A DNA stretch of 49,235 nucleotides from a virus. The stretch is taken from IMG/VR virus record IMGVR_UViG_3300049057_000242, positions 1-49,235 of that record. One strand, 5' to 3'. The notes under the pieces are model-generated. The model was given only the letters and a program-made list of their open reading frames with translations, did no database searches and was not told where the DNA came from. The position numbers and the translations under genes are program-made. Within the stretch, counting starts at the first letter, position 1. Every line of letters begins with the position of its first letter. Positions 692 through 46,059 of the stretch are shown here, one piece after another.

Positions 692-2926
692 ATGTATTTT
701 AATATAAACACAAATCCCGTTCGTCCTAATCAGCTGGAAGCCGTTAAGGACAAACAATATCATAATGATTTCGCCCGATGGACGTTAAACGGAATCAATG
801 ACTTTTATCACAGGGAGTTTATTGTAAAATCATTAGCCAATTGGTCATTTTACAAAGGTGACCAATGGATCTTCGATGAAGATTTGGAAAGCTTCTTCCT
901 GGATGAATCGGGAGATGTAAAAAACAGGCTTAAATGGACGAAAAACTTAATTCGTCCGATGGTTGACCAATATATCGGAAACGCCATTCGTCTTGCCTAT
1001 AATGCCCGTGCCAAAACATTTGGTGATTTCGTTATCAACCGCAGGGAAAAAGAAATGATGAGATTAAAAGGGTTCCAAAAAATAGCCCAATTGATCCCGG
1101 AAGTTAAAGATCTTATTACGGACCGTGTTCCCATCCGCGACACGGAAGCTGAAACAATGGAAGATTTCGATTTGATGTTTGACGATAATTTGGCCGAAAC
1201 GATAAATAATCTTTTGACCTATATCGAAAAAGACATCGACATCATCCAGTTAAAAATCCGAATCTGTAAATTTCTCGCCTTAAATGGTGTGGGAGTTTAT
1301 AAAGGTTTTGAATCGAACATGAAATACGTTGGTGACGCTATCGATCCGATGTATTGGTGGTTTGACCGCAGCGCCCGAAAACCGGATTTATCCGATGCTG
1401 CATATATGGGAGAATGGTATTTTATGGTGACATCATCCATATTCGAAAGATGGCAGGAGATTTCAAAAGACGATCGAATACTTATCGAAAAATCAGCCGT
1501 AAACCAATCCTTTAACTCCAACAACACCGTAAACTCTTATTATTACAGTAATATGCCGGGAGGAAAAATACCGGTTTACGAAACGTATTGGAAAGACACT
1601 GAACAACAGGAATACGCTTACGTCATGGATCCTTACGGATATCCGCTTTGGACCAAAATAAACACGATTGATGGAAAGTACAAAACGAAGGACGTAATAG
1701 ATCCTCCCAAAAATGAAAAGACGGATAAGCTTTTCGATAAAGGAAAAAAGACCGTAAAGATTTATGTCGACACGTTGCGTTTTTGCATTTTCATTCCTTC
1801 GGAACAAATAGGATCTGATCACGATATCATTTTGGAATACGGAGAGGTTCCGTACCAGGAAACATACAAATACGACCCATCCAGCACCCAATTCCCGTAT
1901 AAATGTTATACATGGAACTATGATAAAGGACAAATCATAACTCCGATTGATGATGCGCTCAGTCCGCAACGATTGATCAATCGATTTATTTCGATGGCCG
2001 AGAGTCAGGCGAATAATTCAAATCTTCAAGGAACAATTATTGCCGCTGAGGCCATTAATCCCCGTGATGGAGAAGAAGGAACGAAAAGAGCCATAAATCA
2101 AGGCAAGCCGATAATTGTAGAAACTGTCCGCACCGGCTCGGTGCAGAATTCCGTTGGAACTTATGGATCGAACCTGAATAATAATATTTTCACCATATTC
2201 AGTGCAATGAAGGAATTCCAGATGTCTCTGGGAGATGTTACGGGTGTCAATGATGCCATGACGGGAACGATGGGTGGTGATGACACGTTGGTGGGTGTCG
2301 TGGATGCACAGATACAGCGTGGAAGCATTTTACAGGAACCGTTTTATTATGCGTTGACAAAAATATTGGAACAAGCATACCAACACATGGCTACAGTGGG
2401 GAAAAAGGTTTATTACGATTCTCCACGAAAAATGTCAATGATTGTCGGTGATAAAGGCTATCAGATTTTGACCGTTACACAGGACCACATGCTGGAAGAT
2501 TTCAGGATTGACGTGGAAAGAACCGAGAGCCAATTGACGCTTAAAAACAATGCGAACAGCTTAATATTTACACTTCTTCAGGGAGGATTGTTGGATCCAC
2601 TGAGAGCGTCTATGTTGCTTAACCGAGCTACTCCGGATCAAGTTTCCAAATCATTGCGCGAATATCAGCTCGAACAATATGCTGCTAAAAAAGAGCAGGA
2701 TAATATTAACCAACAACGCATGATTCAAGACAGGAAGGATCAACAACAAATGATGGGCGCTCAAAAGGAGGAAATGGACAAACAACAGGCTCTTTTAATG
2801 GCTCAAGATGAGCTGGATAAGGGACACCAGAAGGATATGGAAATATTGAAGGGAAATCAAAAGCTGACCAACACCATGGTTGCCGGTGAAATAAATAATC
2901 GAAACAATATTGCAAAAGCAGAATAA
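692..2926 (+). CDS. Portal protein (head-tail connector dodecamer)
   Basis: At 744 aa this is the size of podovirus and crAss-like portals. The portal forms the ring at one capsid vertex through which DNA is packaged and ejected. Support comes from the N-terminal layout (an aromatic-rich region with FYKGDQW near residue 55, then NLIRPMVDQYIGNAIR near residues 86-101, a pattern typical of phage portals), the position before scaffold and capsid genes, and a C-terminal tail from about residue 665 that is rich in Gln, Met and charged residues and predicted helical, matching a barrel/crown. No frameshift is seen. A broad structural label is safe; portal is the best fit from pattern and gene order without a database search. 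Confidence 0.85.
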   Translation: MYFNINTNPVRPNQLEAVKDKQYHNDFARWTLNGINDFYHREFIVKSLANWSFYKGDQWIFDEDLESFFLDESGDVKNRLKWTKNLIRPMVDQYIGNAIRLAYNARAKTFGDFVINRREKEMMRLKGFQKIAQLIPEVKDLITDRVPIRDTEAETMEDFDLMFDDNLAETINNLLTYIEKDIDIIQLKIRICKFLALNGVGVYKGFESNMKYVGDAIDPMYWWFDRSARKPDLSDAAYMGEWYFMVTSSIFERWQEISKDDRILIEKSAVNQSFNSNNTVNSYYYSNMPGGKIPVYETYWKDTEQQEYAYVMDPYGYPLWTKINTIDGKYKTKDVIDPPKNEKTDKLFDKGKKTVKIYVDTLRFCIFIPSEQIGSDHDIILEYGEVPYQETYKYDPSSTQFPYKCYTWNYDKGQIITPIDDALSPQRLINRFISMAESQANNSNLQGTIIAAEAINPRDGEEGTKRAINQGKPIIVETVRTGSVQNSVGTYGSNLNNNIFTIFSAMKEFQMSLGDVTGVNDAMTGTMGGDDTLVGVVDAQIQRGSILQEPFYYALTKILEQAYQHMATVGKKVYYDSPRKMSMIVGDKGYQILTVTQDHMLEDFRIDVERTESQLTLKNNANSLIFTLLQGGLLDPLRASMLLNRATPDQVSKSLREYQLEQYAAKKEQDNINQQRMIQDRKDQQQMMGAQKEEMDKQQALLMAQDELDKGHQKDMEILKGNQKLTNTMVAGEINNRNNIAKAE

Positions 2927-2956: not shown

Positions 2957-4207
2957 ATGGCAGAACCATCTAAAGAAAAACTTGAAGTAGAAAACCCCCA
3001 AGAAAACCAGGTTAATAATCAGGCACAAAACATAAGTCCTATTAACCTAAATGAACAGTGGGATAGCCTTCAAGGTCTTGCATTAATTAATCCCGGACTA
3101 AAAGAAAGCCCGGATTATAAAGCTCTCGAAACGAAAATGCTCGAAGCTGCAAAGACAAAAGGTCTGATAAAAGAAGGTGGTGGTGCAGGTAATGGCGGAG
3201 CTGCCGCGACAACTACTACCGAAGAAGAAGAGGAAGAAGAAAAGCCGGAGGATAAAAAAGATAAGAAAGATGTAGATACAAAACCGAAAAATGTATTTAA
3301 CATCGGACTTAAAAAAACGGAGAAAAAAGTAAATCCGGTTATTGAAAAGTTGGATGCTGAAACATTGAAAGGAGTTTTGAAGCCTTTCGGAACAGAAGAT
3401 CCAAATAAGTTCTTTGAAGAAATTGTTCCGAAGTGGAGACAAGATTCCCAGGATTTAGCCACTACTCGCGAAGACCTTGAAGCGCTCCAACAGGAATTAG
3501 GCAATATGCCGGATGACATAAAACTGATCATTAACGCTTATGCCGGTGGACATGACTGGAAAGAAGTGATCAATGTCGGAATTCTTAAACCCGACTTTAA
3601 TCAGGCATTCGATAAACTGGATAAAGAAAATGTTGTGAAGTTTTATTATCCGGATAAATATAAGTCTTTGAAGCAGAAATTGGAAGAAAATGACGAATTT
3701 GAAGAGGAAGACTTCAATGAGCATCTTTCTACATTACATGCTGCTGCAAAGCCGCTCTTTGAAAAGGATAAGGGGCTATACGAAAAACAACGTGCTGACA
3801 TTTTTGAATCTTCTGACAAGGCCGATAAGCTTTGGAAGAGTTCTGTCGCCAGTTCCGTTGAGGCTCTAAAAAAAGAATACCCTGACTTCAGTGCTACTGA
3901 ATTACAAAAAGTTCGTAGTTTCTTGGTCAACGGGGAAATTGAAAGCCTTTTAAAGGATAAGAACGGATCCTGTAAACCAACCGCTGCGAAAGTTGTCGCG
4001 CTGGCTTTATTTGGAGAAGATCTTATTAAGGATTTGCTCGAACAGGCTGAGAAAAAAGGTGTGTCTTCTGCCGAGATGGAAATTGCCACTCGTGGAAAGA
4101 AGAGCATTGTAAGTTCTAAGGCTGTTGAAAACGCGAAAGAGAAAGTAATGGAAGCCGCAACTTCCCATCTTAAATTTTCGCAACCGGAAAAGAATCCTTA
4201 TTTATAA
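2957..4207 (+). CDS. Capsid scaffold-like protein
   Basis: A 416-aa highly charged protein directly before the major capsid gene, the normal place for a phage scaffold that templates head assembly and is then removed. The N-terminal third is Asn/Gln-rich and low complexity. Residues about 85-110 hold a Thr run, then a Glu run, then Lys/Asp repeats. The rest is predicted helical with coiled-coil-like heptads. No protease motif is seen, so it is not an obvious scaffold-protease fusion. The C-terminus (KFSQPEKNPYL) is basic to neutral, as in scaffolds that dock to capsid protein. The assignment rests on context and composition, not on sequence motifs. A box at 2934-2941 probably drives it. Confidence 0.75.
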   Translation: MAEPSKEKLEVENPQENQVNNQAQNISPINLNEQWDSLQGLALINPGLKESPDYKALETKMLEAAKTKGLIKEGGGAGNGGAAATTTTEEEEEEEKPEDKKDKKDVDTKPKNVFNIGLKKTEKKVNPVIEKLDAETLKGVLKPFGTEDPNKFFEEIVPKWRQDSQDLATTREDLEALQQELGNMPDDIKLIINAYAGGHDWKEVINVGILKPDFNQAFDKLDKENVVKFYYPDKYKSLKQKLEENDEFEEEDFNEHLSTLHAAAKPLFEKDKGLYEKQRADIFESSDKADKLWKSSVASSVEALKKEYPDFSATELQKVRSFLVNGEIESLLKDKNGSCKPTAAKVVALALFGEDLIKDLLEQAEKKGVSSAEMEIATRGKKSIVSSKAVENAKEKVMEAATSHLKFSQPEKNPYL

Positions 4208-4225: not shown

Positions 4226-5467
4226 ATGCTTTACAATCTTCCCAATGAGGCACTAAGTAACGTAAACTTAAACTCACTCGGTTCGGACTATGCACAACAG
4301 TTCGGCCACGACTTATCCCTTTTAGTCGCTAAACAAACAAGAGAGCAGATTTTTGATTCATCACCTAAGCAGTTCTATGACCTTGCTTTGATGAATGCCA
4401 AAGCGCCAAAGTCATGGAACTCTGACGAATTCTTCTACAAAGAAGTAGGATATCAGCGTCAACCTTTGATCGCTACCGGTACAGCTGCAGCTGTTGCTTG
4501 GCCGTCTACCCAAACTTTCACAATTTCCACGCTGGATGATGTGTCGACAGACACAATGATCGCATATCCGAACGGACAAATGGGTAACGTTACCGCGATC
4601 AACAGTTCTACAAGCCAAATCACCGTGACACCAATGACAAACAGTACGCTTCCGGCTGTTGTTATAGGTGACTCATTCGCAAACATCTCTTCTGTTGAAG
4701 CTGATGGTGTGGATGGATTCGCTCAATATTTCCGTCAAAACTCTATCGAGCGTAATGGTTATATCCAGTTATTCTCAAAGGCCATCCATTATGGTCAAGT
4801 GGAGCTTTACAAACTTCAAAAAGGTGCCATCCATAAGGATTGGTTAGCGTCTGAAAGCAGAAACATGATGCGTCAACACAAAATTGACTTGTCGAATGCT
4901 TTCTGGATGGGACGTAAAGGTGAAATCACCACGGCTGCCGGAGATAAGGCAAAACTAACCGATGGTGTGTTCACAATGATGCAGAACGCAGGATCTCCTA
5001 ACGCTACAACCACTACCGCTACATTAGCTGACGCTTTTGAAGACATGGTATTGGCTTCTGAGTACGGAGACTTCGGAGATGTTCGTTTCGCTTACATGAC
5101 GCCTCGTGTTAAAAACGAATTGCGTAAGGCGTACACGACTCAGCTGACTCGTTACACACCGGAAAACCAAAATATCGCGAAGCTTTACTTGGACGAGATT
5201 CGTCTTGGATCAAGCCGTATCGTATTGGTTCCGTTCCAACGTTTCGAATCGCCTGCTGACTTCTATCCTGGATTCGATAGCCGTATCGTTATTCTTGATC
5301 ACATGACAATCGATACTTACGAAATGTGGGGAGCTACCTCTGGTACAACTCCTGACCGTTCACAAGGATTCGCTAAGTCATACAAGGATATGTGGGTAGC
5401 TTGTCAAATGGGTGTTGCGATGAATAACCCACTTGCTTCGGCTTGGGTTGACATCACAGGTCTGTAA
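4226..5467 (+). CDS. Major capsid protein, HK97-fold type
   Basis: 413 aa, 18 bases after the scaffold gene and closed by a strong terminator, as expected for the most abundant virion protein. The N-terminus is a short helical arm. The centre (residues about 85-155) is a Thr/Ser/Val-rich beta insertion, and the second half has mixed alpha/beta segments ending in a beta-rich conserved tail. Slightly shorter than crAss-like capsid proteins, which are commonly near 500 aa. Codons look optimised (GGT, CGT, AAC, TTC), consistent with high expression. Another abundant structural protein is the only serious alternative. Confidence 0.85.
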   Translation: MLYNLPNEALSNVNLNSLGSDYAQQFGHDLSLLVAKQTREQIFDSSPKQFYDLALMNAKAPKSWNSDEFFYKEVGYQRQPLIATGTAAAVAWPSTQTFTISTLDDVSTDTMIAYPNGQMGNVTAINSSTSQITVTPMTNSTLPAVVIGDSFANISSVEADGVDGFAQYFRQNSIERNGYIQLFSKAIHYGQVELYKLQKGAIHKDWLASESRNMMRQHKIDLSNAFWMGRKGEITTAAGDKAKLTDGVFTMMQNAGSPNATTTTATLADAFEDMVLASEYGDFGDVRFAYMTPRVKNELRKAYTTQLTRYTPENQNIAKLYLDEIRLGSSRIVLVPFQRFESPADFYPGFDSRIVILDHMTIDTYEMWGATSGTTPDRSQGFAKSYKDMWVACQMGVAMNNPLASAWVDITGL

Positions 5468-20700: not shown

Positions 20701-23700
20701 TGAATAAACAGTTCCAACCTACGGGCGAAAAACAAAAATTACCTGAACAAAGAGAACGGGCTGTTACGGAAAATCAACGTTACGATATCGAGGATGGCCA
20801 TCACAGATTCATAGCCTATGGTGAATCAGGGGTTAAGGAAATACCGGCTGTTGATGAAAAAGGAAATGACATTACTGTTCCTATCGAATCATTGCAGCCA
20901 ACCGAAAACCTCGAGGAAAAGGACCGAAAAGTAATTGACGATATAAAAACCTCCATTTCGAAGGGAGATAAAATTGAACCCATCGAAGTAAAAACACCAT
21001 CAAATGAAATCAAAAAGCAACAAGGGGTACAAACTCCTGGTAGCGGCAACGGGGAAACCATCGTCAAAGCCCAACCAGACAAAACCAAGACCGAGGTATC
21101 TGAGCAACGCGATGAAAAAGTAAAACCCGCCACCAAATATGAAAGGAGATTGGCGGATGCTAAAGATAAAATTGCAGATGTCAAAACTCCCCGTACCACT
21201 TTGCAGAATGCAATAAATAAATTGTTTGTTCGGGAATCCAAAACGGGAGTGGGGAATAAAAAAACCACTACATATGTTCCATGGAAAAATGATAAGGCAG
21301 GGGACGGCTTGTTGGGGGTAGTTAAAAAAGAAATGGGTATTGAATTCACCACCGCCGATACACCGCAGAAACTTTATAATGCCGCCATCAAACAAGGTAA
21401 AACGCCCCAACAGTTCATTGAAGCTGTCGATGTGGCTATGGGGAGAAAGATACAAGAAAAAGTTCAGGTTGAAAAAACCAAAACCGTAAAGGAAGAACCC
21501 GTTGTTGTCAAACAACAACCCCCAAGACAAGACGAATATGTCCGCAGTGCCAACGATGAAATTGTCAAACTGGAAAAAGAAAATTCCAAGATAAAAGAAT
21601 CTTCTGACGGGTTAAAGGAAAGGGCTTCAAAAGAAAAAAACACCACATATCAAAAGGCGTTAAAATCCATTGCTGAAGGCATTGCTAACCCGGATTTAAA
21701 AAGCGCAAAGGATTTGAAGATTGATGGGAAATCGTATGGTGCATGGCTACTTGATCAGATGAATGCAGGTAATATTACGAGGGAACAGATGGCGGAATTG
21801 AATAAAATATATTCCGACCAAAAAGACCATATAGGTAAAACGAATCAGAATGCCGATGCCATAAAGAACAAAAGGGAATGGATTAAAAAACGTCTTCAAG
21901 ATATTGCGGCTTTAAAATATATCGGAACCGACACGTTGAACATGGGGTTGTTTGCCGTTCCCGTCAATATGACCATCGCTGTTGCCAAAAGAATGGCCAA
22001 TACGATGTTGAAAGCCATGTCGGTTTATGACAAGGCAATAAATTATGACAAGGTGGGCAATGAGGTTATCCGGGACATGAAAGATACCAAATGGTATAAA
22101 AACCTTTCCTCCCCTGAAAAGAAGGCGATCAATAAATATTTGAACTCTAAAGATCCTTTCGATGCTGTTGTGTCGATCATTGATGATGTGGCCCGCAATA
22201 AACCCGAAATAATAAAAGGAGAAGAAGCTACGGGTAAACGTGTGGGCGAGATAAAAGGACAGCGAAAACAAGCTGCTGCTGAAGAATCAAAGATGGCCAC
22301 AGGTAAAAAGGTGCTTACTGAGAAAACGATAAAAGGCAAAAAGAAGGTTGTTTACGCAGAAGACAAAACCAAGGCAACCGAAACAGCCGCTAAAAATACC
22401 GCGAATAAATTAAGAGACAGGATCAAGACAAGATCAAAATCGGAATTCATTGCCTTGAACGATAAAAAGTCGTTGCAATTATTCCTGACGGTTGATCCGG
22501 ACGCTTTGATGCTTGCTGGTGGCGTGAATGCCATCAATGAATATAATGAATTCGCAAAAGGGGTATTGAGCCAAATAGCCAAGATGGGATTTGTTCCCGG
22601 CACCACTAAATTAAAAAACACCAAACGGGAAATCTCGAACGACCAGATATCGGAGTATGTAAAAAATGCCCAGGAAAAGGCATCCAGTTATGAATTTGAG
22701 AAATTCAAATCGGACAATAAGTCTTTAATCGATGCGATGCTTAAAATAAAGGCGATTGATGCTGATTTTACAAAAGAACAATTGAATGAGATAATCAATG
22801 ATTTTGGATTAATCGATAACGTAACTGAAAAAGTAAATGGCAGTATAGATCCAAACAAGTTGAAAGAAATGCAATTGGCCGTTTCGGATGATCTGTCCAG
22901 ATTAAATGAATCTATTGCGAATAAAGAATTTTCCGATTTGGAAAAAAGGAACCAGGATGTAATAAAAAATGTATCGAAGTTAAATCCATTAGACCTTACG
23001 GCTGCTGAAGCTTTAAAGGCAAATTATATAATCAATAATATAATTACCAATAAGGATATATCGGGTGTGGGGCATATTGAAGCCATTGCCATTGCCCAAC
23101 AGGCTTATGTGGAACTGAAAAAAATAATCGTTGACGGTAAAACGCTCCGCGATATAGAAGAAGGTGCTATTTCAAAAGGTGCACGCACAACCCCGGTACT
23201 GTTGGCTGCCATCGCATCGAATAACGATCTGGCTGCTGGTATTCGTGAAGCCTTAAAAATGCAGGAACTCGGTGCTTCTTATTCGGACATGTCGCAACAG
23301 GTGCAAAAGAACTGGAGTAAAAAGGTTCGGTTGATAACCAAACAATATGGACGGGACATTATCCGGAATCCTGAAAACAGAATTCGTCAAGGCATGTATG
23401 CTCTTATGTTGCAATGGACCGGGACTACTAACAAGGAACAACAAAACTGGTATGACGACAATAAGCAGTTGATCCTTGAGGATATTCAAACCAAGAAAAA
23501 CTCGAAACAGGAGGATTTGATTGAAGAGGCGAAAATTGAAGAGAAAATATTTAAATCAATATTTGAAAATTCCGCCACTATCGAAAGCGCAAAAAGAGCA
23601 ATGAATAAATACCCTGGCGATAAGGCTATGGTGGAATTAGCCCAGGATGTTTATTCAAAAAACATTACCGATTTCCAATGGACATCGAATGTTTATGGTA

Positions 23701-25579: not shown

Positions 25580-26827
25580 ATGGCATTTCAAGCTAACATA
25601 CTCGGATTACAGAGTAACCTCCCCGCAGGTTGTACCTTGGCAGGTATTGATAACACGAATTACGACTTAAATCCTACCCCCCGTTTTAGCCGGTCAAAAT
25701 TCAATAATACTTTCATTTTTATTATCCGGCCCGATTTGTCGGAATATATTTTTGGAAGTTCTGCTTTAAATGCTTTCGATGAGGCTATGGATAGCCCTGC
25801 TGATGTTACGGGTCCACAACAGATAACCTATAACTTCCTGCCCACCGATGTAAATGGCGTTTACACAATTGAATTGGTTACCCTTCCAACTTACGATGCT
25901 TTGGAAAGTTATGAACCAAATGAATTTGTAGTTTTTAATGGCCAGATATGGAAGAACACGCTTGTAACCAACCCATTATCACCATCAGTTCCAAACGGAT
26001 GGACACTGGAGGTTATGGCCAGTTTAAGGTCGACCTCATATACCGTTACCTCTTTAGGCACTGTTACAATTGATTGCCTTCAATCATCTTATTATCAGAC
26101 ATCAATGTATGATGTTGCTACGGATCAAGAGCTTATTGACGTAACAGCTTCGTGCAGCGCTATCGATTTTACCGATAATTCAAATTGGTCAGAAAATAGT
26201 GAAGAGGGGCATGCGTTATCGGATTTTTCCAATTACCGAAGAATAACCTTAACTCGTCCCGATACAGGAACGTATGTGTATTTTACCGTAGCCGGTACCG
26301 GAATTGATGAAGTTATTGCCGCTGCGGCCAGCGGGAACCAAGATTTTACATATCCATTTTTATCTACCGATATTGATGGAAGATACCAGGTTAAGATATG
26401 TGAATATCCGACATGGGGTGATGGATATAATTATTCCGCAGATCGTTTTACTGTTGTGTATTATGATGGGGTTCTTTATAAAGCCATACAGAATAACGTA
26501 GGTTCTCAGCCGGACATTACACCTTCCGATTGGGCGGTTTATGCTCCAACGGCTGAAGAGGAAGAAATAACAAGGTATTGTTATACCGCAAATATTGCTG
26601 TTCTGTGCATCGGGTTAAACAAATGCATGGAAGAAAAGAATCATCAGGCGATATGCGGGATTCAAAAAGATTTTTGTAATAAAGACATTCTTTGTAAGAA
26701 TCCTGATTTTTTAGATTATACGATACTTCGCACTCTTCGTGACGGGGTTGAATATTCGATGAATAGACAGATGTGGAATGAAGTGGATGCAGAATTTAAT
26801 TTAATGCGATTAATTTGTAATTGTTAA
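25580..26827 (+). CDS. Tail appendage protein with two carbohydrate-binding-like repeats
   Basis: 415 aa with an internal tandem duplication. Residues about 85-153 and 258-325 align by eye: both begin TY.FL.TD..G.Y and continue to a Y....F.V...G..(W/Y)K segment that ends in a Trp 16-20 residues later. The second half of each unit resembles the chitin-binding CBM5/12 pattern (aromatic, VVY.G.LYKA, then PS.W). This suggests binding of a cell-surface glycan. The C-terminal 90 residues hold a dense set of Cys residues, ending in CNC. Expressed from the box at 25568. Probably a tail hub or fibre-base protein; the precise role is unknown. Confidence 0.75.
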   Translation: MAFQANILGLQSNLPAGCTLAGIDNTNYDLNPTPRFSRSKFNNTFIFIIRPDLSEYIFGSSALNAFDEAMDSPADVTGPQQITYNFLPTDVNGVYTIELVTLPTYDALESYEPNEFVVFNGQIWKNTLVTNPLSPSVPNGWTLEVMASLRSTSYTVTSLGTVTIDCLQSSYYQTSMYDVATDQELIDVTASCSAIDFTDNSNWSENSEEGHALSDFSNYRRITLTRPDTGTYVYFTVAGTGIDEVIAAAASGNQDFTYPFLSTDIDGRYQVKICEYPTWGDGYNYSADRFTVVYYDGVLYKAIQNNVGSQPDITPSDWAVYAPTAEEEEITRYCYTANIAVLCIGLNKCMEEKNHQAICGIQKDFCNKDILCKNPDFLDYTILRTLRDGVEYSMNRQMWNEVDAEFNLMRLICNC

Positions 26828-41902: not shown

Positions 41903-44503
41903 TTAAAAAGGTATATCATTTGTTGCATCGAAATCTTTATTCGGTTTCATTCCGCCCGACCCGCCTTCATTGCTTTGTGGCGGCATGGTCTGTGGAATTG
42001 TAAAGGCTGCCAGATTGGAAAACGTAACCGTTCGTCCGTTAAACGCAACCTTCGCGTTATCGATGGCCCCGTTCCGATGTTTGGCTATAATAATCTTCGC
42101 TACTCCCAAAAGGCTTTGGCCTGTTTCGTCCTCCGTGATGCCATAATATTCTGGACGGTAAAGGAACTGTACGAGATCCGCATCCTGTTCAATTGAGTTG
42201 TGTACAATTATTCCGTTTGCCGTAAAATTATGCACTTCTGGCACCTCAATATCATAAACAAACTCTATTCCACAATTTTCAATTGATTTTATAGGTACGT
42301 AACATAAAGTTTTATTTTTATTAAAAGATGCTTTTGTCCATCCGGAAGATATGTTTTTCATTTTTTCCCATCCTTTTAACATGATGTCATTTTTTCTTTT
42401 ATTCCAAAAACCAATATTCGATACATAATTATCGATACTTGATTTTCCAGAAACAGTTAGGTTAAACCATTTTTTATCCGCTGTATTTTTATGTTCAGAT
42501 ATTCTGGAATAAATTCCTATTTTACTGAACAATATTTGAATACCATTTATTAATTCTCTGCTTGAAGAAGAGTAGCTTATTGTGAGGCTTTTTCTTCCTA
42601 TTTGTTCACGATAATAAGCCGTCCCATCCCCACTAAATAAAGATTTTAAAAACAAGCATGTTTGCTTGTGAGAAGCAAAAAACAATTGATCTGGAACAAA
42701 TTTGTCTTTCGCCCTTTTGTCCCACAAGCCATGTTTTTTAATTAAATCACCTAAAGGAGATGTTTTTCCATGAGTTAAATGGAATGATGGTTTAAAATAT
42801 ACTGTTCTACTGCTTGATTTTGGGCGAATAGTATCTTTAAATGATGGGCGTAAATTGCCAACCGCATTAAGTGCATGTTTCATAACTATTTTAGACAAAT
42901 CATCATCAAGAATATTACAAGTATATCTTATTGGTTGTCTTGATATGGCAGATCCGTTTGCAATAAAATGGCCTAAAATACATACTTCTGAATCCATTAA
43001 TGCGGAGTCATGGGTTTGTCCATAATTGAATGGAATGGCTATCTTGTCACCCACCCCTAAGTTTTCTAATTGGGTCCATCCTTTTTCTTCAGAAAGGAAT
43101 TTGTGGTTTCCTGTTGCCTTTATTTCCATTCCATTGATGAGTGTTATCTTAAAAACCTCTCTCTCTCCGGTTAACCATGCTTTAGTTGCTCTCATAGACT
43201 TGTTTTTAGTGTAATCCGTTGCAAGTATATGAAATCTTTTTCGGTGTACCAAATCTTTAATACGAACACGTCTTTTGTCGCTGGTTACGTGTATGATAGT
43301 GTCACCACTTAAACAACCAGAATCCCTTAAATCGGAGAGCATTGGCTCTTTAGTTCCCCCCCTTGTTTCCACAGATCTGGAAAGTTGAGATAATGCTATT
43401 ACTGGTACATCAAACTCTTTAGCAATTGCTTTGAGTCCACCGGAAATTTTACCCACCTCCTCGTTTCGGTTGCCCCCCGTGAATCCTTTTACGGTATGGA
43501 GCTGTAAATAATCCGTTAGTATCAAATCGATCTGATATTTGGTTTTGTATTGCTTTACCCGTAATCTCATGTCCTGGATGGCCAGTGCCGGTGTGTCGTC
43601 AATAATAACATTCCAATTCTTGGCCATGTTTTGAAACGCAGAATATTGATCCATCTCCAAATTATTCAATCCCTCCTTCATTAATTTGTCCAAAGGTATG
43701 CCTGTTTCGATGGACGCTAAACGGTAATATAGTTGCTGCCTGCTCATCTCAAGAGAGAAGAATACCACTCCAAAGCCCATTTTAAGGGCTGTGACGGCAT
43801 ATTTCAACGCAAGGGACGTCTTACCCATCCCCGGCCGTGCCGCAAGGATTATGAGGTCGGTTTTCTGCCAGCCCCCCGTAATAATGTCGAGTAACGTAAG
43901 TCCCGAAGGTATGCCGCTGATTCCTTTGGACGAAAGAAGTTTCTCGTTTCTTTCCCGTAACGATTTGTCCAGATCGACCAACCCAATTGGCATATTGATG
44001 GACCTGAAGTTGATCAGATTGTCAAGGGACCGCTGTGTATCTGAATGGATATCGAAAACATCTTCCCCCTCGTCATAACCCTTTATGATCATATCATTAC
44101 CTAATCGGATTACTTCTCTTTTCATGAAGCACTGATATATCAGGGCCGTATGTTCCTCGATGTTGGCCGATGATACTACCCGATTTGTCAGGGTGGCTAT
44201 GTAAAAAGGCCCACCCACCGAATCCAATTCTCCTTTCTTTCTCAATTGAGCTGTAGCGGTAATGATATCGACTTTTTTCTTTTGATCAACCAACTCGGTG
44301 ATGGCGGAATAAATTTTCTGATGCTCATTTTTGTAAAAACAATCAGGTGAAAGCATGTTGATCACAAAATCACACGATTCTATATCCAACAACATGGCGC
44401 CCAGAACACATTCTTCTGCCTCGATGAATTGGGGAGGCAGCTTACCGCCTATCGTTCCATCAAATAGGCTGATTTTATTTTTCCTTACCGAATCCATTGG
44501 CAT
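41903..44503 (-). CDS. dnaB: DnaB-type replicative helicase precursor containing an intein
   Basis: 866 aa as read; 493 aa after removal of the 373-residue intein (397-769). The extein shows the DnaB layout: N-terminal helical domain (GKLPPQFIEAEECVLGAMLL), linker, and RecA-like motor with Walker A ARPGMGKT (222-229), FSLEMSRQQL (249-258), Walker B-type LILTDYLQL (327-335), KAIAKEFDVPVIALSQLSR (358-376) and, past the intein, SIEQDADLVQFLYRPEYYG. The helicase moves 5' to 3' on the lagging strand. The end of the protein, DATNDIPF, resembles the SSB C-terminal peptide. The start overlaps the upstream loader candidate by 29 bases; ATG 44497 is another option. Splicing is needed for function because the insertion splits the motor near its ATP site. 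Confidence 0.93.
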   Translation of the reverse strand: MPMDSVRKNKISLFDGTIGGKLPPQFIEAEECVLGAMLLDIESCDFVINMLSPDCFYKNEHQKIYSAITELVDQKKKVDIITATAQLRKKGELDSVGGPFYIATLTNRVVSSANIEEHTALIYQCFMKREVIRLGNDMIIKGYDEGEDVFDIHSDTQRSLDNLINFRSINMPIGLVDLDKSLRERNEKLLSSKGISGIPSGLTLLDIITGGWQKTDLIILAARPGMGKTSLALKYAVTALKMGFGVVFFSLEMSRQQLYYRLASIETGIPLDKLMKEGLNNLEMDQYSAFQNMAKNWNVIIDDTPALAIQDMRLRVKQYKTKYQIDLILTDYLQLHTVKGFTGGNRNEEVGKISGGLKAIAKEFDVPVIALSQLSRSVETRGGTKEPMLSDLRDSGCLSGDTIIHVTSDKRRVRIKDLVHRKRFHILATDYTKNKSMRATKAWLTGEREVFKITLINGMEIKATGNHKFLSEEKGWTQLENLGVGDKIAIPFNYGQTHDSALMDSEVCILGHFIANGSAISRQPIRYTCNILDDDLSKIVMKHALNAVGNLRPSFKDTIRPKSSSRTVYFKPSFHLTHGKTSPLGDLIKKHGLWDKRAKDKFVPDQLFFASHKQTCLFLKSLFSGDGTAYYREQIGRKSLTISYSSSSRELINGIQILFSKIGIYSRISEHKNTADKKWFNLTVSGKSSIDNYVSNIGFWNKRKNDIMLKGWEKMKNISSGWTKASFNKNKTLCYVPIKSIENCGIEFVYDIEVPEVHNFTANGIIVHNSIEQDADLVQFLYRPEYYGITEDETGQSLLGVAKIIIAKHRNGAIDNAKVAFNGRTVTFSNLAAFTIPQTMPPQSNEGGSGGMKPNKDFDATNDIPF
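42197..43315 (-). other. DnaB intein with LAGLIDADG endonuclease region
   Basis: Starts with Cys397 (CLSGDTIIHV) after DLRDSG and ends with VHN769 before Ser770 of SIEQDAD: a class 1 intein at the same site as cyanobacterial and Rhodothermus DnaB inteins. The N-terminal splicing block is followed by a block with GNHKFL; the end is VYDIEVPEVHNFTANGIIVHN (two halves, 750-769). Two LAGLIDADG-like helices are present, LGHFIANGSA (510-519) and LKSLFSGDGTAY (619-630). The first lacks the acidic catalytic residue (Asn instead of Asp/Glu). DNA is more A/T-rich than the exteins. Confidence 0.9.
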
Positions 44504-44986: not shown

Positions 44987-45823
44987 TTAATCTGTACATC
45001 CTCCAGAATCGCACATTGTAAAATCATCTATACCTGTGAAAATATTATCGAATTTCATTTCGAAAATATCATCGTAAGTTGTTCGATCATCTTGCCAAGT
45101 ATTAAAATTACCTTTCTTTTCTTGTAAGGAAAACCACTCCATTATTTCTGGGCGATCAACGTAATTCAATTTTATTATTTCTTTTGGCTTGTGATGACAA
45201 CCCATACAATTAGAATTTTGAGGGAAAATAAATTCTGGATGATTTTCTTGCCAATATTTTTGAATTTGGTAATGAAAAGTTTTACCCAACGGAAATTGCT
45301 TTATTGAATATTCAATGTCCGATCTATTTTGTCTTTTATGTCCAAAATTATTACATGATATTGGGTAGTCTTTAATTATAGAAACAGGATTTTTACTCAT
45401 TCTTTTTAATCGAGAAAATTCATCCAATCTGATTCCTATATTCATTTTCGTGTGTCCGAATCTAAAATAAACATATTCAAAAATTGGCAATATTTTCATT
45501 TGGGTGGTACAAAATCTTCTCGCCCATGTTGGTAAACATCCTGCTTCATCAATTACCTTATCGAAAGATTTACCTCTAACCCAAATTATTTCCTTTCCCA
45601 ATAATTGTTCCAATTGCATCATAACTTTTAAAGTTAAATCACTCTCGGCTGACGCAATAAAATTACCATTCAATTTGTCTTGCGCATATTTTAAAATAGA
45701 TTTATCTTTAGGTTCAGCCTTAGGATAATCAATGCAAACACAAGCAAATATATTTACATCCGATGGATAATGAATCCCCATATAACTACTGCTTTTACCT
45801 CCAGAAAGTGAGTTTACTATCAT
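44987..45823 (-). CDS. PP-loop (PAPS-reductase/adenine nucleotide alpha hydrolase-like) protein
   Basis: 278 aa. The PP-loop SGGKSS lies at residues 7-12, directly after a first beta strand (MIVNSL), the pattern for enzymes that adenylate or handle sulfur groups, such as PAPS reductase and DndC-type proteins. Cys residues cluster later (CTTQ near 105, CMGCHHKP near 206-213, a final C.SGGC near 270), which may hold a metal cluster or act in sulfur transfer. ATG 45823 is used in place of a TTG at 45835, since it gives a 2-base gap and puts the strand at the very start. No DndB/DndD-like partner is in the window. Possible role: sulfur-based DNA or tRNA modification, unproven. Confidence 0.8.
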   Translation of the reverse strand: MIVNSLSGGKSSSYMGIHYPSDVNIFACVCIDYPKAEPKDKSILKYAQDKLNGNFIASAESDLTLKVMMQLEQLLGKEIIWVRGKSFDKVIDEAGCLPTWARRFCTTQMKILPIFEYVYFRFGHTKMNIGIRLDEFSRLKRMSKNPVSIIKDYPISCNNFGHKRQNRSDIEYSIKQFPLGKTFHYQIQKYWQENHPEFIFPQNSNCMGCHHKPKEIIKLNYVDRPEIMEWFSLQEKKGNFNTWQDDRTTYDDIFEMKFDNIFTGIDDFTMCDSGGCTD

Positions 45824-45825
45824 AG

Positions 45826-46059
45826 TTATTTGCAATTATCACATTCTACAGACACCACACATCCCCCGCAGCAAACACTCATTGTTGGGGCATCGCACCG
45901 AACTCTATCTACTTTCCTCGTATTACCACAATCCACACAGTGTCCCAAACTTAACAGACGAATATTAAGGTAAGACAATATCTTATTGTTGACCGACCAA
46001 TCGGGTGTTATGTGGTGGGCATAGATCAAGAGGGGGAGGGGATTATATTTTTTTATCAT
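45826..46059 (-). CDS. Small Cys-rich zinc-ribbon-like protein (77 aa)
   Basis: The second half holds eight Cys residues: 41, 44, 55, 63, 64, 67, 73 and 76, with CVDCG, CCGGC and CDNC pairs that can bind one or two zinc ions. The first half is neutral and aromatic. Overlaps its neighbour upstream by 4 bases (ATGA). Such small knuckle proteins often bind nucleic acid or modify host transcription; no family recognised. Confidence 0.7.
   Translation of the reverse strand: MIKKYNPLPLLIYAHHITPDWSVNNKILSYLNIRLLSLGHCVDCGNTRKVDRVRCDAPTMSVCCGGCVVSVECDNCK

Follow-up and report, generated by a model that had tools for sequence, protein, structure and literature searches.

A probable circularly permuted ParB/sulfiredoxin-fold domain with its DGHHR box first in a giant phage protein

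Within a giant protein of an uncultivated phage, the two halves of a ParB/sulfiredoxin (ParB/Srx) domain stand in swapped order, the half carrying the DGHHR box (B half; beta3, alpha2, beta4) preceding the half that normally comes first (A half; beta1, alpha1, beta2). The best reading of this arrangement is a real and so far unique circularly permuted domain. Taken as a whole, the explanation of a compact permuted ParB/Srx domain, probably an NTP unit of the giant protein, appears quite likely to us, its functional part being the weaker one. On balance, we also lean towards seeing in it the first circular permutation found in nature for the ParB/sulfiredoxin NTP-binding fold, present as a working domain with the DGHHR box first in a giant phage protein. 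ParB-type domains serve as NTP switches in settings as different as chromosome segregation and phage effectors, and searches for the family presume one order of elements. If the permutation is true, the chain of this fold can be opened between the two halves that make up the active site, and standard profiles miss swapped members; a Pfam scan with the entire 2580-residue protein gave no ParB match. The weight of the case is moderate, with one sequence and a putative function, and it suggests seeking swapped-order members of the ParB/sulfiredoxin fold in other large phage proteins.

The source is a single metagenomic IMG/VR record, that of an uncultivated bacterial or archaeal virus, and the window is the whole stretch of DNA analysed, 49,235 nucleotides in length. 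The giant ORF belongs to a structural gene block and lies 3' of the portal and capsid genes (Table 1). At full length, its product had no relatives in Pfam, PHROG, the PDB, IMG/VR or phage records, and Pfam, NCBIfam and PADLOC gave no other domain that exceeded the cut-off. The permuted domain would sit in the middle of this protein, between charged, low-complexity segments. The stretch 2957-4207 of the window, used as a search query, returned no relatives.

Table 1. Positions of the ParB-like domain, its parts and the surrounding features in the window.
Feature	Nucleotides	Strand	Residues (aa)	Basis and remarks
P22-type portal gene	692-2926			Profile match
SU10-type major capsid protein gene	4226-5467			Profile match
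Giant ORF, 2580 aa	17790-25532	+		Carries the ParB-like domain
Charged, low-hydrophobicity segment before the domain	20703-20777	+	972-996	Composition; pLDDT low at aa 985-988
B half (beta3, alpha2, beta4)	20778-20855	+	997-1022	RYDIEDGHHRFIAYGESGVKEIPAVD; B-half HMM, ParB_N positions 49-85
DGHHR motif	20793-20807	+	1002-1006
Linker DEKGN, short and new	20853-20867	+	1022-1026	Connects the usual C-terminal end (beta4) with the usual N-terminal end (beta1)
A half (beta1, alpha1, beta2)	20868-20993	+	1027-1068	DITVPIESLQPTENLEEKDRKVIDDIKTSISKGDKIEPIEVK; A-half HMM, AlphaFold2
Low-complexity, low-hydrophobicity segment after the domain	20994-21119	+	1069-1110	Composition; pLDDT low from about aa 1074

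For the identification of the two halves, DGHHR-containing ORFs from IMG/VR that resembled the restored domain were aligned, and one profile was built per half. Since the seeds of this first set had been chosen with the window's own domain, the procedure was repeated with seeds chosen by a domain from another locus, L234. The B-half profile scored 42.0 bits at aa 995-1025 and at most 1.8 bits elsewhere in the protein, and the A-half profile scored 30.1 bits at aa 1026-1073, with a best score of 6.6 elsewhere and a maximum of 13.0 against 1000 shuffles of the same residues. A first-pass annotation, made from the letters alone, had proposed that the DGHHR half precedes the normally first half, and these scores bear it out; the span it gave, nucleotides 20778-20990, corresponds exactly to aa 997-1067. 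RYDIEDGHHR begins at aa 997, PIESLQ begins at aa 1031, the last residue of IEPIEV is aa 1067, and DGHHR occurs once in the 2580 residues. The same annotation had seen no other copy of either element nearby, and the half profiles indeed found none elsewhere in the protein. Specifically, no second A half was found upstream of DGHHR (aa 850-996, A-half profile), where a normally ordered first element before residue 1002 would have spoken against a swap, and no second B half was found downstream (aa 1068-1300, B-half profile). Both halves lie far above chance, each is unique within the protein, and their order is swapped.

The conserved motifs of both ParB/sulfiredoxin halves are present, namely G..P..V in the A half and the DG/GxHR box and G..xIP in the B half. 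The match to beta1 is weaker than that to alpha1-beta2, and the match of the L234-seeded profile starts at about alpha1. Beta1 is backed by the first model set, by PHROG and NCBIfam profiles, and by the A half of the domain in locus L268, whose IPIENLVPSEKLSEKD is closely like VPIESLQPTENLEEKD.

An error of contig assembly, or a chimera, could in principle have placed the halves in the wrong order, and the arrangement does come from a single metagenomic record with no second copy found in our scans. Nevertheless, no stop interrupts the frame at any of the three junctions, which lie inside one 7.7-kb ORF, no repeats that could cause misassembly flank the domain, and base composition and codon-position GC run smoothly across the junctions. 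Given these three features, we consider such an artefact highly improbable. A biological alternative is that the B-A pair consists of two incomplete halves of former tandem ParB-like domains whose outer halves were lost, leaving an unclosed, decayed and non-functional scar. Tandem duplication followed by partial deletion is how a B-A order classically arises, and the arrangement is known from one sequence, but the half profiles detected no outer-half remnants on either side, the key residues are kept in both halves, and the boundaries fall at beta2/beta3 with a linker that is just long enough. We regard this scar as unlikely, also in light of the structure prediction given below.

The circularly permuted reading was examined further with a restored construct of 79 residues, in which the halves were put in normal order. 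Against Pfam ParB_N (PF02195), which has a cut-off of 26.3 bits, the restored order reached 27.2 bits and passed, whereas the native order reached 14.3-19.9 bits and failed. For TIGR00180, the scores were 34.3 bits restored versus 20.6 native. With phrog_1033, the restored construct matched in one stretch at 36.2 bits, compared with 27.8 bits in two separate stretches for the native order, and replacing the A half with shuffled or unrelated stretches gave at most 17.5 bits. Altogether, the restored order matched 13 PHROG families, mostly ParB-like. L234-seeded models built without the window scored the restored order at 54.6 bits and the native order at 31.6, with 1000 shuffled first halves reaching at most 47.5 bits. 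When 56 normal domains were swapped deliberately, their median fell from 80 to 36.5, and the window shows the same behaviour. Searching with the halves in normal order, as the first-pass annotation had proposed, was thus positive with Pfam, PHROGs, NCBIfam and our own HMMs, four model sets independent of one another, and the controls failed. The restored order also aligned end to end with solved chains of SerK, ParB and Noc, across 71 residues in the case of SerK, with weak E-values.

Structure prediction was performed with AlphaFold2 (AF2) on aa 985-1085 together with 33 natural half-domain rows, each carrying one half. The rows were aligned with MAFFT as half fragments with their natural upstream flanks, as bare fragments had placed A halves on the B half. 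The resulting model contained a strand at aa 998-1002, a helix at 1004-1013, strands at 1017-1021 and 1027-1031, a helix at 1044-1058 and a strand at 1065-1068, with pLDDT of 83-94 across most of the core (about 90) and a pTM of 0.63. Linker residues 1022-1026 lie between the strands 1017-1021 and 1027-1031, with a local pLDDT of about 90. In place of the normal beta1-alpha1-beta2-beta3-alpha2-beta4, the modelled order E-H-E-E-H-E reads beta3-alpha2-beta4-beta1-alpha1-beta2, and this predicted order is what a circular permutation would produce if the chain were opened between beta2 and beta3, where the family has a loop whose length varies. The linker of about five residues is as expected for closure of the fold.

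AF2 with the single sequence and no homologues gave a poor model (pLDDT 50.7) without such a fold. Because of this, the structural support rests on the supplied half-domain rows, which, holding one half each, carry no direct information on how halves pair. Foldseek against the PDB and BFVD returned no significant match and suggested no other known fold; because Foldseek aligns in chain order, a ParB match was not expected, and the search gives no positive support either. The closed permuted fold is supported as a prediction and is not independently proven. The structural part of the earlier proposal therefore stands for the element order and the high local confidence obtained with half-domain homologues, and not for the model from the single sequence. 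That poor single-sequence model is also compatible with a tandem remnant, but with homologues AF2 yields one confident core.

Phage ejection proteins can be oligomeric, and if the giant protein assembled in this way, a B half might be completed by the A half of a neighbouring chain. This arrangement, which the first-pass annotation had raised beside permutation, accords with sequence data that cannot tell pairing in cis from pairing in trans. Against it, the five-residue beta4-beta1 linker permits closure within one chain, and the AF2 monomer closes with high local confidence, so that we find pairing between chains very unlikely. The circularly permuted domain is the reading favoured by the restored-order profiles, the failing controls and AF2 with homologues.

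How rare the swapped order is was assessed in several collections. Among 345 sequences with 14972 ORFs, all 68 other domain instances with both halves (some of them redundant) had the normal order, and the sole swapped case was the window together with its own sub-loci. Strict DNA-pattern scans for the swapped order returned 8 stretches in IMG/VR and 67 in GTDB contigs, none of them real and all of them chance or normal-order matches. A relaxed scan of IMG/VR contained no real swapped case among the matches listed (at least 120), and a scan of IMG/VR with a looser box but the PTE ending gave no match. As these patterns fix D as GAT and limit the gap, they leave room for other swapped cases. 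In addition, a native-order search of 395 genomes from the phylum of a Flagellimonas genome found no match at 1e-3 in a set without a positive control. With the arrangement in one sequence, there is no evidence of its conservation or selection. Our literature search turned up no description of a permuted domain of the ParB or sulfiredoxin type.

The closest comparisons are large phage proteins with the same motifs in the order A then B. Of these, the domain of L268, a 1274-aa ORF of IMGVR_UViG_3300001533_003144 (A half IPIENLVPSEKLSEKD...EGKEMPPLIV), matches the restored domain of the window best, and a second such protein, in IMGVR_UViG_3300042334_000305 (L040/L047), occupies the same slot as the window's giant ORF. 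Compared with the ParB-CTPase fold (ParB_N, TIGR00180), the window differs in its circular order, in having DGHHR instead of a GERR-type box and in the absence of a ParA context. ParB-type domains occur in phage fusions and bind CTP, ATP or GTP in many contexts (PMC12704722), and the main text of that survey does not mention permutation or circular order. The DdrB-type ParB-like domains of phage polyvalent proteins likewise represent a ParB/Srx domain within a very large phage protein (PMC5512222), and the 2580-aa protein shares with polyvalent proteins the trait of being encoded among the virion genes of a portal-type phage. Polyvalent proteins combine several effector domains in one chain, among them peptidase, ART and Pol-beta NTase, whereas no DdrB-type or other polyvalent-protein domain was detected in the window's protein. 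Permutation is not mentioned in the main text of that study either.

By sequence profile, sulfiredoxin, SerK and SbnI belong to the same fold family, and the normal-order family profile aligned with ParB, SbnI, SerK and sulfiredoxin; their solved chains are in normal order. The GCHR box of sulfiredoxin holds a catalytic Cys, whereas the window's DGHHR has His at that position, so this sulfiredoxin hallmark is lacking. Unlike the free-serine kinases SerK and SbnI, the window's domain shows no evidence for serine kinase activity. In a published account, ParB/sulfiredoxin appears among superfamilies with a topology outlier and not among the permutation cases (PMC3779223).

Regarding function, DGHHR has been assigned to the active site, predicted to bind metal, of toxin domains of the ParB type (PMC3482391), and a role as NTP-regulated DNases has been proposed for the ParB domains found in phage polyvalent proteins (PMC5512222). 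In our proposed mechanism, residues from about 997 to 1068 would form one compact ParB/sulfiredoxin-fold domain, its chain cut in the beta2-beta3 loop and its old termini, beta4 and beta1, joined by about five residues. With the DGHHR box and the G-x-K-x-x-P-x-x-V element both retained, the swapped halves could together re-form the phosphate/metal-binding pocket of the normal domain. We infer that the domain may be an NTP-binding or hydrolysing module, possibly a nuclease, which would be carried into the host or act in the virion, in line with proposals for the ParB domains of polyvalent proteins. The position and size of the gene suggest that the giant protein may be taken up into the virion and ejected into the host.

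Circular permutations usually arise by duplication followed by partial deletion. The permuted order here would have the same origin, and the loop cut and the five-residue joint fit that route.

Related phages were identified via the portal and a conserved neighbouring protein of 259 aa, both 44-57% identical to those of the window, the other structural genes being less so. Giant ORFs fill the corresponding slot in these phages, as one ORF in some and as two in others. BLAST, HMM and hhalign comparisons detected no similarity between the window's giant ORF and those of the relatives (L004, L005, L043-L050). This dissimilarity, set against the clear kinship of many neighbouring genes, points to extreme divergence or replacement. 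In IMGVR_UViG_3300042334_000305, a normal-order DGHHR ParB domain lies near the start of the second giant ORF (1734 aa), indicating that what sets the window apart is the swapped order and not the presence of a ParB-like domain in this slot; the other relatives checked gave no ParB_N match. Between the giant ORFs at 9479-16207 of L044 and 3458-8182 of L046, identity is about 82% over the first 175 aa and about 42% in a conserved C-terminal part, a pattern reminiscent of mosaic exchange where the second giant ORF begins, in the same place as the normal-order ParB domain of genome G010.

Several further genes of the window were recorded. Directly 3' of the giant ORF, a 415-aa protein (25580-26827, + strand) showed a weak CBM_5_12 match of 16.7 bits, below cut-off, and its C-terminal part is akin to 252-aa ORFs of L004 and L005. 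On the minus strand, a DnaB-like replicative helicase ORF of 866 aa (41903-44503) contains an intein-type insert, in which Intein_splicing spans residues 408-769 and LAGLIDADG_3 matches residues 617-698. Also on the minus strand, the ORF at 44987-45835 encodes a phosphoadenosine phosphosulfate reductase-like protein (phrog_424, 67 bits), which also matched the PADLOC model SspD of DNA phosphorothioation at 38 bits.
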